64,000 bases of DNA from Erythrobacter sp. (GTDB lineage Bacteria; Pseudomonadota; Alphaproteobacteria; Sphingomonadales; Sphingomonadaceae). The stretch spans positions 1-64,000 of the forward strand of contig JASBTD010000038.1 of NCBI GenBank assembly GCA_030148605.1, written 5' to 3'. The number at the start of each line of letters is the position of its first letter. The first letter of the stretch is position 1. Positions 13,192 through 23,174 of the stretch are shown piece after piece. The translations under genes and the position numbers were made by a program. The notes beneath the pieces are model-generated. The model did not search any database, was not told where the DNA came from, and saw only the letters and a list, made by a program, of their open reading frames with translations.

Positions 13192-13198
13192 GCCTCCC

Positions 13199-13314
13199 CC
13201 GTTCGCATCGAGCGGAGGTTCGAGCCCAGCCGAGAACCGAAGTCGAGAGACATACGCCTGCCGTGTCTCGACGGGCGCATCTCGCGATGGCTCGATGCTG
13301 CTCGACACGAACGG
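13199..13314. repeat. Palindromic repeat copy A (ribF/ileS intergenic)
   Basis: Starts CCGTTCG, ends CTCGACACGAACGG; right half 13264-13314 matches the reverse complement of 14780-14830 at 45/51 by hand alignment. Confidence 0.85.
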
Positions 13315-13327
13315 AAATGCGATTGCA

Positions 13328-16282
13328 ATGAGCGACGAAACCAAGCGCGACTACAGAGACACGGTTTTCCTGCCGAAGACCGATTTTCCCATGAAAGCCG
13401 GCCTTCCGCAGAAGGAGCCGGGCATTCAGGCGCGCTGGCAGGACGAAGGCCTTTACAAGCAACTGCGCGAGAGCCGCGCGGGCCGCGAGAAATTCATCCT
13501 GCATGATGGCCCGCCTTACGCCAATGGCGACATGCATATCGGCCATGCATTGAACCATATCCTCAAAGACATGGTCTGCCGCACGCAGAATCTGATCGGC
13601 AAGGACGCGCCCTATGTGCCGGGCTGGGATTGCCACGGGCTGCCGATCGAATGGAAGATCGAAGAGCAGTACCGCAAGAAGAAGCTCGACAAGAATGCAG
13701 TCGACCCCAAGGAATTCCGCGCCGAATGCCGCGCCTATGCGCAGCATTGGGTCGATACGCAGCGTGAGCAGCTGAAGCGGCTCGGCATCATGGGCGATTG
13801 GGACAATCCCTATCTGACCATGGATTTCGCGGCCGAAGGCACGATTGTGTCAGAGTTGCTGAAATTTGCCGAAAGCGGCAACCTCTATCGCGGGTCAAAG
13901 CCGGTGATGTGGAGCCCGGTGGAGCAGACTGCGCTGGCCGAGGCCGAAGTCGAATATGAAGACCTGACCGACAGCCCGCAGATCGATGTGGCGTTCGAGA
14001 TTATCGAAAGCCCAATTGAGGAGCTGGTCGGCGCGCATGCAGTGATCTGGACAACCACGCCGTGGACGATCCCTGTGAACCAGGCTTTGGCTTACGGGCC
14101 CGATGTTGAGTATGTAGTCCTGGAATTTGAGGGGAAACGCCTTCTTATCTGTGCAGAGCAGGTAACTGAGACATTTTTCCGGATTGCTCACCAGAAAGAG
14201 GGCAATTTTCTTGGCGAGAAGCCCGGTGTCGATCCAGACAACTGGACCTGGGGCGACGACCCTAAGGTGTACAAAGGCTCCGATCTTGTTGGAACCTATG
14301 CACGCCACCCGATGCATCACCTCGGCGGGTTCTACGCGACGCCTCGTCCCTTCCTTGCGGGCGATTTTGTCACCACCGAGAGCGGCACAGGCCTCGTCCA
14401 TATGGCGCCCGATCATGGCGAAGACGATTTCGCGCTGTGCAAGGAACACGGGATCGAGCCGGTCTTCGCTGTAATGGACGACGGTCGTTATCGCGATGAT
14501 TGGCTGTGGCTGGGCGGGCATGACGAGCGCCGCCGCGCGGTGATCAACAAGCAATTCAATGCCCCCGATGGCCCGATCTGTTCGGACCTGCGCGAAGCAG
14601 GCGCACTGCTTTCGGCCTCCGCCGATTACGAGCACTCCTACCCGCACTCATGGCGCTCCAAAGCCAAGGTGATCTATCGCTGCACACCGCAATGGTTCGT
14701 GCCGATGGACAAGCCTCTCTCGACTTCGGATCTCGACACGCTCGATCCTGCGCTCGAGACGAACGGGGATATAGAAAATCCGTTCGTGTCGAGCAGCGTC
14801 GAGCAAGGTCGAGACGCGCCCGTCGAGACACAAGCTGACACGCTGCGCAGCCGCGCCATGTCGGAAATCGCCCGCGTCCGCTTTGTGCCGGAAAAGGGGC
14901 GCAACCGCATCGGCTCGATGGTCGAAGGTCGGCCCGACTGGGTCCTCTCCCGCCAGCGCGCCTGGGGCGTGCCGATTACGCTGTTCGTGAACCGCAAGAG
15001 CGGCGAATACCTCGTCGATGAAGCCGTGAACGCGCGGATCGTTGCCGCCGTGCACAAGGAAGGCGTCGATGCGTGGGAAGAAGCGCGCGCGCAGGAATTC
15101 CTCGGCCCGGACTACAAGGCCGAAGACTATGAAATGGTCACCGACATTCTTGACGTGTGGTTCGATTCGGGCTGCACGCACAGCTTCGTGCTGGAAAGCG
15201 GCAATTGGCCGGACCTGCGCTGGCCCGCCGATCTCTATCTAGAGGGCTCTGACCAGCACCGCGGCTGGTTCCAGTCGTCGCTGCTGCAAAGCTGCGCCAC
15301 GCGCGGCCGCGCGCCCTATGATCAGATCCTCACCCACGGCTTCACCATGGATGCCAAGGGCAAGAAGATGTCGAAGTCGCTCGGTAACACCATCGACCCC
15401 TTAAAGGTGATGGAGCAATATGGCGCGGATATCATCCGGCTGTGGGCGCTGTCGGTTGATTTCACCGAGGATCACCGCATCGGCGATGAAATCCTCAAAG
15501 GCGTAGGTGATCAATACCGCAAGCTGCGCAACACCTTCCGTTACCTGCTCGGCGCGCTCGACGGCTTCGTTGGCGATATGGGCGATGCCGGCGAAATCCC
15601 CGAGCTGGAGCGCTATGTTCTGGCACTGCTGGCGGATCTCGATGGCAAGCTGCGCAAGGCAGTCGATAATTACGACTACAATGCCTACACGCGGCATCTG
15701 GTCGATTTCTGCAACGAAGACCTCTCAGCCTTCTTCTTCGATATCCGCAAGGACAGCCTCTATTGCGACGGGCCGGACAGCAATACGCGCAACGCCTATC
15801 GCACCGTGCTCGACCTGCTGTTCCACGCGCTGGTGCGCTATGCCGCGCCGGTGCTGGTCTATACCGCGGAAGAAGTGTGGAGCACGCGCTACCCGGATGG
15901 CGGCAGTGTGCATTTGCTCGAATGGCCGAAGGTGCCGGGCGTTACCGCTGACGGCGCGAAGTGGGACAAGCTGCGCGATTTGCGCGAACGCGTGAACGAG
16001 GCGATCGAGCCCTTGCGCCGCGACAAAGTGATCCGTTCCAGCCTGGAGGCCGAAGTCACTGTGCCTGCTGATGCCGTGCCTGAAGGCTTCAGCGACGCAG
16101 ATCTGGCAGAGCTGTTCATCACCGCGTCAGTCACACGCGGGCAGAGCGACACGGTGACTGTGACCAAGACCGACCACCACAAATGCGGCCGTTGCTGGCG
16201 CCTGCTGCCCGAAGTTTCGGAAGATGGCGAGCTATGCGGCCGGTGCGAGGATGTTGTCAGCCAGATGGATGCAGCTGCATGA
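13328..16282 (+). CDS. ileS: Isoleucyl-tRNA synthetase carrying an internal repeat-derived insertion
   Basis: HIGHALNHILKDM, KMSKSLGN, C-terminal zinc motif CGRCWR...CGRC; start ATG 13328 preferred over 13295, which lies in repeat A. Confidence 0.95.
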   Translation: MSDETKRDYRDTVFLPKTDFPMKAGLPQKEPGIQARWQDEGLYKQLRESRAGREKFILHDGPPYANGDMHIGHALNHILKDMVCRTQNLIGKDAPYVPGWDCHGLPIEWKIEEQYRKKKLDKNAVDPKEFRAECRAYAQHWVDTQREQLKRLGIMGDWDNPYLTMDFAAEGTIVSELLKFAESGNLYRGSKPVMWSPVEQTALAEAEVEYEDLTDSPQIDVAFEIIESPIEELVGAHAVIWTTTPWTIPVNQALAYGPDVEYVVLEFEGKRLLICAEQVTETFFRIAHQKEGNFLGEKPGVDPDNWTWGDDPKVYKGSDLVGTYARHPMHHLGGFYATPRPFLAGDFVTTESGTGLVHMAPDHGEDDFALCKEHGIEPVFAVMDDGRYRDDWLWLGGHDERRRAVINKQFNAPDGPICSDLREAGALLSASADYEHSYPHSWRSKAKVIYRCTPQWFVPMDKPLSTSDLDTLDPALETNGDIENPFVSSSVEQGRDAPVETQADTLRSRAMSEIARVRFVPEKGRNRIGSMVEGRPDWVLSRQRAWGVPITLFVNRKSGEYLVDEAVNARIVAAVHKEGVDAWEEARAQEFLGPDYKAEDYEMVTDILDVWFDSGCTHSFVLESGNWPDLRWPADLYLEGSDQHRGWFQSSLLQSCATRGRAPYDQILTHGFTMDAKGKKMSKSLGNTIDPLKVMEQYGADIIRLWALSVDFTEDHRIGDEILKGVGDQYRKLRNTFRYLLGALDGFVGDMGDAGEIPELERYVLALLADLDGKLRKAVDNYDYNAYTRHLVDFCNEDLSAFFFDIRKDSLYCDGPDSNTRNAYRTVLDLLFHALVRYAAPVLVYTAEEVWSTRYPDGGSVHLLEWPKVPGVTADGAKWDKLRDLRERVNEAIEPLRRDKVIRSSLEAEVTVPADAVPEGFSDADLAELFITASVTRGQSDTVTVTKTDHHKCGRCWRLLPEVSEDGELCGRCEDVVSQMDAAA
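14720..14833. repeat. Palindromic repeat copy B inside the ileS coding sequence
   Basis: Inverted arms CTCGAGACGAACGG (14753-14766) and CCGTTCGTGTCGAG (14780-14793); encodes STSDLDTLDPALETNGDIENPFVSSSVEQGRDAPVETQ. Confidence 0.85.
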
Positions 16283-23107: not shown

Positions 23108-23174
23108 CCGTTCGTGTCGAGCATAGTCGAGACACGACCAGGCCAGCGGTTCTCGACGTGCTCGAACCGAACGG
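23108..23174. repeat. Palindromic repeat copy C (etfB/etfA intergenic)
   Basis: CCGTTCGTGTCGAG...CTCGAACCGAACGG, same termini as copies A and B. Confidence 0.85.

Follow-up and report, generated by a model that had tools for sequence, protein, structure and literature searches.

An in-frame palindromic repeat in a sphingomonad isoleucyl-tRNA synthetase gene, at a putative tolerated landing site for palindromic DNA

How does a dispersed palindromic repeat come to lie in frame within an essential enzyme, and is the place where it lies exceptional? This question is raised by the ileS gene (13328..16282, + strand), encoding isoleucyl-tRNA synthetase, in a 64,000-nucleotide stretch of DNA, here called the window. 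The window lies on contig C32 of a draft genome of 2.6 Mb in 66 contigs, whose nearest named relatives are Erythrobacter- and Altererythrobacter-like. Its ileS is the single full-length copy listed for this genome and lies between ribF on one side and an lspA-like gene (named by eye) on the other. The gene matches TIGR00392 with 783 bits, its translation contains HIGH-type (MHIGHALNH) and KMSKS motifs, and there is no interruption along the whole reading frame. The start codon is likely the ATG at 13328. The first in-frame ATG of the open reading frame, at 13295, falls within a repeat just upstream of the gene, and so automatic annotation may append 11 mostly repeat-derived N-terminal residues (MLLDTNGNAIA).

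Within this gene, between a conserved 5' loop border (TPQWFVPMDKPL, 14684..14719, + strand) and a conserved 3' border (LRSRAMSEIARVRFVP, 14843..14890, + strand), we find an in-frame insert of 38 codons (14720..14833, + strand; STSDLDTLDPALETNGDIENPFVSSSVEQGRDAPVETQ), immediately preceded by TPQWFVPMDKPL and followed by DTLRSRAM. The whole palindrome, which is long but imperfect, spans 14716-14831 and is in frame and stop-free. It comprises a left arm (CTCTCGACTTCGG...CTCGAGACGAACGG; 14716..14767, + strand), a spacer (GGATATAGAAA region; 14768..14778, + strand) forming the unpaired hairpin loop of the RNA fold, and a right arm (CCGTTCGTGTCGAGCAGC...GTCGAGACAC; 14779..14831, + strand). The folded insert reaches -63 kcal/mol, as against -41.8 +/- 3.6 for shuffled sequences (z -5.9), with 0 of 200 shuffles as low. 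A preliminary description of this DNA had reported a head-to-head palindrome (CTCGAGACGAACGG, 13 nt, CCGTTCGTGTCGAG) within ileS, a frame open and free of stop codons across 14720-14833, and 45/51 identity of the right half to the upstream repeat. The palindrome is present in the sequence with a strong RNA fold, the ileS frame is intact throughout, and the reported identity agrees with the 47/53 nt (89% over 53 nt; E 3e-13 genome-wide) that we obtained between the right arm and the reverse complement of 13263-13315, the alignment scoring 82 against a maximum of 48 among 1000 shuffles. The in-frame palindrome is thereby confirmed as real and far beyond chance, and from the open frame, the essential nature of the gene and the frame bias described below we infer that its peptide is translated. 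Misassembly of repeat DNA into ileS might be suspected in a 66-contig draft when the element is itself a repeat; with the frame intact, the flanks normal and the same arrangement recurring in independent assemblies, including the single-contig genomes G039 (L186) and G083 (L146), such an artefact is highly improbable.

The intergenic gap between ribF and ileS contains an element of the same family (13197..13315; RNA z -3.7), which is matched not only by the right arm but also by the left, at 83% to the reverse complement of 13197-13250. As the left arm too matches this element, the ileS insert and the upstream element are circular permutations of each other, with GTTCG at the inner ends of the former and at the outer ends of the latter. 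A third copy in the window is intergenic, between etfB-like and etfA-like genes named by eye from their translations (23108..23174; RNA z -4.1); neither this copy nor the left-arm match figured in the preliminary description. A further copy is found on contig C51, in the gap from pheS to pheT (pheS named by eye). Pooled repeat queries gave 53 matches in the window genome, so that the proposed check for dispersed copies by a BLASTN-type search came out in favor of a genome-wide repeat. The only Rfam match in the window was a tRNA. The window element is thus an inverted dimer of hairpin units scattered between genes, as are REPs and REPINs, and it combines an in-frame gene insertion with intergenic copies, as do the Rickettsia palindromic elements.

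The latter are palindromes of about 100 bp that occur in intergenic DNA as well as within open reading frames; they are tolerated in surface regions of proteins and have no known transposase. The likeness drawn earlier to these elements appears fair as to mode of action, since here too palindromic repeats occur both intergenically and in frame within proteins; the elements described here belong to another lineage (Erythrobacter-like and other Sphingomonadales), have other sequences and are represented by several families at a single site. REPINs and the REPs mobilized by RAYT transposases are dispersed, mostly intergenic palindromic dimers of short hairpin units (PMC3116915, PMC2817692). Our elements share with them the dispersed dimers of hairpin units, but differ in that neither the window genome nor most carrier genomes gave a RAYT match and in that the copies amount to tens of matches rather than hundreds. 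A search for the RAYT domain (PF01797, Y1_Tnp), in which control genomes such as E. coli were positive, gave no match in the window genome and matches in 5 of the 21 genomes searched; its absence from the window genome led us to reject RAYT as the mobilizer. G019, a close relative, has several Y1 transposase matches (L255, L260, L262-L265).

To place the insert in context we compared 173 distinct ileS sequences, which remained after removal of duplicates from 80 GTDB loci and 114 genomes of the window's genus. Across the Sphingomonadales sampled, the loop that separates QWFVPMDK from LR is hypervariable both in its length and in its composition. Distant alphaproteobacteria in the comparison mostly lack it or have a short one. 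Its states in Sphingomonadales are short (e.g. DKELDGGGT), one of the non-palindromic types A, B, C and D, or palindromic. In each of the six nearest relatives of the window ileS the loop is of type A, which contains WEGEGGAIDP, is about 36 aa long and is unrelated to the insert. The preliminary count of about 38 extra codons therefore holds against short-loop synthetases, such as that of S. aureus, which has zero residues at the insertion point in our alignment, but not against the closest relatives, over which the 36-residue loop leaves a net gain of about 9 codons. The E. coli enzyme is likewise of the short-loop type. The expectation that most homologues would show a 38-aa gap was wrong in detail, many relatives having other sequences of similar length, whereas the view that the segment is not conserved synthetase protein is borne out by its absence from ileS in the closest relatives. 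The hypervariability of the loop could in itself suggest an ordinary fast-evolving, low-complexity segment whose likeness to repeats is due to chance or to composition. Against this stand the DNA identity to intergenic repeats, the self-complementarity, the codon-shuffle z scores given below and the use of differing frames of the same repeat, which leave that reading only the faintest chance.

The window insert is one instance of a wider pattern that the preliminary description did not see, namely the targeting of this loop by multiple families. Palindromic DNA occupies the loop in 33 of the 173 distinct ileS genes, a count that takes in two half units and a copy of which part is deleted, and in 21 of the 100 near-complete ileS of the genus. 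By eye on the DNA, these inserts fall into four sequence families. F1, with the core CCGTTCGTGTCGAGC...GTCGAG, is found in the window, L186, L193 and L079; F2 has the core CTTCGACAAGCTCAGG; F3 consists of CGTC-tagged REP dimers (CGTCACCCCAGCGAAAGCTGGGG...TGACG) encoding the peptide VTPAKAG...PASAGMT; and F4 is made of CCCCTCCCC-type DNA encoding PSPLQGRGLGEG...LSPEGEG. F1 and F2 are alike in general design and may form one superfamily. Mean codon-shuffle RNA z scores range from -3.4 to -6.6 in the four palindromic classes and from -0.7 to 0.1 in all others. Searches with pooled insert queries brought up numerous dispersed matches in almost every carrier genome; the L079 genome gave zero matches to a pooled query from which its own insert had been left out. 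Palindromes are rarer at other places in ileS, with six at two sites. Taken together, these sequence comparisons point to the IleRS loop as a natural tolerated landing site for palindromic repeat DNA.

On an ileS tree built without the loop, palindrome presence requires 18 changes among the 100 congeners, at least 11 of these being forced by supported branches, and 28 over all 173 sequences. The 18 changes compare with a mean of 19.3 for shuffled labels, that is, palindrome presence is not clustered on the tree. The non-palindromic loop types also switch often (73 changes over all states), and this frequent switching suggests that ileS segments are exchanged between species. It could accordingly be argued that there were few true insertions and that the patchiness stems mostly from homologous exchange, with the loop behaving as a cassette. 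The switching of types A, B, C, D and short is in keeping with this, as are near-identical inserts in non-sister species (L184, L196 and L203; L186 and L193) and the joint change of the loop and the codons that follow it. On the other hand, four unrelated families with varied orientation, arms and spacers at one site require at least four events, or about 20 by sequence clusters, and in L182 the palindrome is an addition to an otherwise intact type C loop. We regard predominant exchange as possible though not probable. Because exchange may move inserts, the safe minimum is about four independent origins, one for each family, the distinct insert sequences giving about 20. In alignments of close pairs the palindrome mostly replaces the older loop, L182 being the exception, so that an apparent insertion may often be a replacement or exchange; no clear target-site duplication or common target was seen at the ends in these alignments. 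L252 has a full palindrome and L253 a palindrome without the left arm, both in frame.

Each of 30 ileS inserts was read in all six frames, and the frame in use was set against the remaining five. In 26 of the 30 it was lowest or second-lowest in the share of bulky hydrophobic residues (Wilcoxon p = 3.5e-6), and it was more disordered by the TOP-IDP scale (p = 2.8e-6). The bulky-residue bias recurred in a set of 43 palindromes, most of them in glyS and other genes and a few lying upstream of the true gene start (p = 3.2e-7), all these p values being optimistic as related copies are not independent. By KD hydropathy alone, the frame in use did not stand apart from the rest (p = 0.12). The window insert is less typical, with 27% bulky residues and a rank of fourth among its six frames. 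One and the same repeat is used in different frames in different genomes. The frame bias is evident in these sequences and would be explained by a filter on surviving insertions. Consistent with such a filter, an AlphaFold2 model of the 984-aa protein, built from 27 family sequences and of moderate quality (mean pLDDT 77), has pLDDT < 50 at residues 468-501, between a strand at 454-459 and a helix at 506-516; the insert loop is thus predicted to be disordered and is probably solvent-exposed. The earlier suggestion of an essential gene tolerating a dispersed repeat in a loop gains support from the copies in the genome, the absence of the insert in the closest relatives and the predicted disorder.

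Based on these observations we propose that the window insert is very probably a selfish REP-like palindromic dimer (F1) lodged in a hypervariable, probably exposed and disordered loop of IleRS that joins the QWF strand to the next helix, where it survives because its peptide is harmless. Elements of this kind would land at many places across the genome, and their insertions would survive only where length and frame fit and where a peptide rich in Gly, Pro, Ser, Ala and Glu does no harm. The IleRS loop, several GlyS loops and a few others would be such compatible places, with selection by tolerance making the hotspot. Some inserts are probably carried further when strains exchange parts of ileS by homologous recombination.

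Of the 33 palindromic loops, 13 are followed by AGA or AGG as the codon for the conserved Arg, versus 2 of the 140 others (p = 4e-9), as for example in L137, L182, L184, L186, L192, L205, L213 and L214. In the window the Leu-Arg codons lie at 14843-14848, and the Arg codon is itself neither AGA nor AGG. The outward flanks of CGTC-type copies elsewhere are purine-rich. We considered and rejected a TTGAGAG flank as part of the element, the flanks of other copies being varied with only their purine-richness in common. The codon shift together with the purine-rich flanks suggests either a flank preference or a co-inserted tail.

Palindromes also occur in other genes. Among the best-scoring non-ileS copies whose surroundings were inspected, 11 lie inside recognizable genes, namely five glyS (L172, L173, L275, L280, L287), pheS, polA, dnaE2, carA, ligA and an Fdh/Nas-like reductase; reading frames without protein-family support (L281, L283, L277, L292, L016, L018, L158) were left out of this count. 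The valS gene of L177 (G121) has an in-frame F4 palindrome between WPDAAKP and LSRHYP; this site and the ileS loop are not homologous. A striking share of the verified intragenic copies lies in synthetases (ileS, glyS, pheS, valS), and one may ask whether the palindromes are selected for, with an mRNA hairpin or the extra loop tuning synthetase expression, translation speed or folding. The copy between pheS and pheT in the window genome, the still strong hairpins and the AGA/AGG skew, by which the sequence adjoining the insert is not neutral toward it, would fit such a role. Palindrome presence is nevertheless labile and unclustered on the tree, most relatives have no palindrome, the carriers differ in insert sequence, length, orientation and family, and DNA polymerase I, DnaE2, LigA, CarA and the reductase are carriers as well; furthermore, the purine-rich flank beside other CGTC-type copies means that the codon shift may be a by-product of insertion. 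Selection for the palindromes is thus quite unlikely. A related proposition, that the repeats are preferentially delivered to or kept in aminoacyl-tRNA synthetase loops of Sphingomonadales, by targeted insertion or through a hairpin or peptide that modulates production, we hold to be rather unlikely too; were preferential targeting true, evolution would have made the frame of these elements compatible with proteins, and synthetase genes would serve them as a habitat.

In-frame REPs tagged with CGTC or GTAG have been described in tRNA synthetases of Erythrobacter litoralis, Sphingopyxis alaskensis and Xanthomonas oryzae (genus names expanded here from abbreviations), with DNA pol I, DnaE2 and DNA ligase also among the hosts (BMC Genomics 2013, PMC3733652). 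That study suggests flexible linkers or loops as possible insertion sites, reports CGTC REPs without transposase association, and describes recB as struck at nearly the same position in two species, with the other cases at different sites. The F3 inserts of other genomes resemble its CGTC REPs in their CGTC ends. The window element instead has GTTCG-type (CCGTTCG) ends and a long imperfect stem; it does not have the structure of the CGTC-tagged superfamily, in which CGTC ends a stem of 8-9 bp that is closed by a loop of 4-5 nt, nor is there a GTAG at its arm ends as in the GTAG-tagged superfamily. It is therefore a new member of the known in-frame REPs, from a family whose ends are GTTCG and which has neither the CGTC nor the GTAG tag. 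In-frame REPs are known from Rickettsia and other bacteria, and those in synthetases of related genera were described in 2013. In contrast to the recB case, a single loop is here struck by four families in dozens of species, and this multi-family hotspot appears to be new: neither recurrent colonization of one loop by four families nor a frame filter was found in the literature searched, which covered little subscription content, and a search by the F2 core sequence returned only papers that look unrelated. In-frame palindromic repeats had been viewed as scattered curiosities; one essential-enzyme loop that is repeatedly filled, with relatives bearing other loops as controls, amounts to a natural replicated experiment on selfish DNA becoming protein, which bears on the sites, frames and peptides that are tolerated. 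For annotators, it is a warning that many of these loops derive from repeats and that the 'extra segments' of sphingomonad IleRS and GlyS should not be taken for conserved parts of the protein.

In 30 glyS genes from congeners we identified recurrent sites at NQKYFVCT|LANAF, LARWLVESDIV|LADMAEQ and RLNL|ELLDFF, and one near the C terminus. The glyS of the window genome (L295, contig C57) has three in-frame palindromes at three of these sites, two of F3 and one of F2, and each of these sites is also filled in other species. Of the two additional ileS sites, one precedes RPRPFLPGD and the other precedes EKW close to the C terminus (L253, L066, L074, L082, L091), and the ileS of L253 (Sphingomonadales bacterium BRH_c42) has palindromes at all three sites. 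In 25 of 141 loci the ribF-ileS intergenic region, too, contains palindromes or inverted repeats of another kind, and these belong to varied families.
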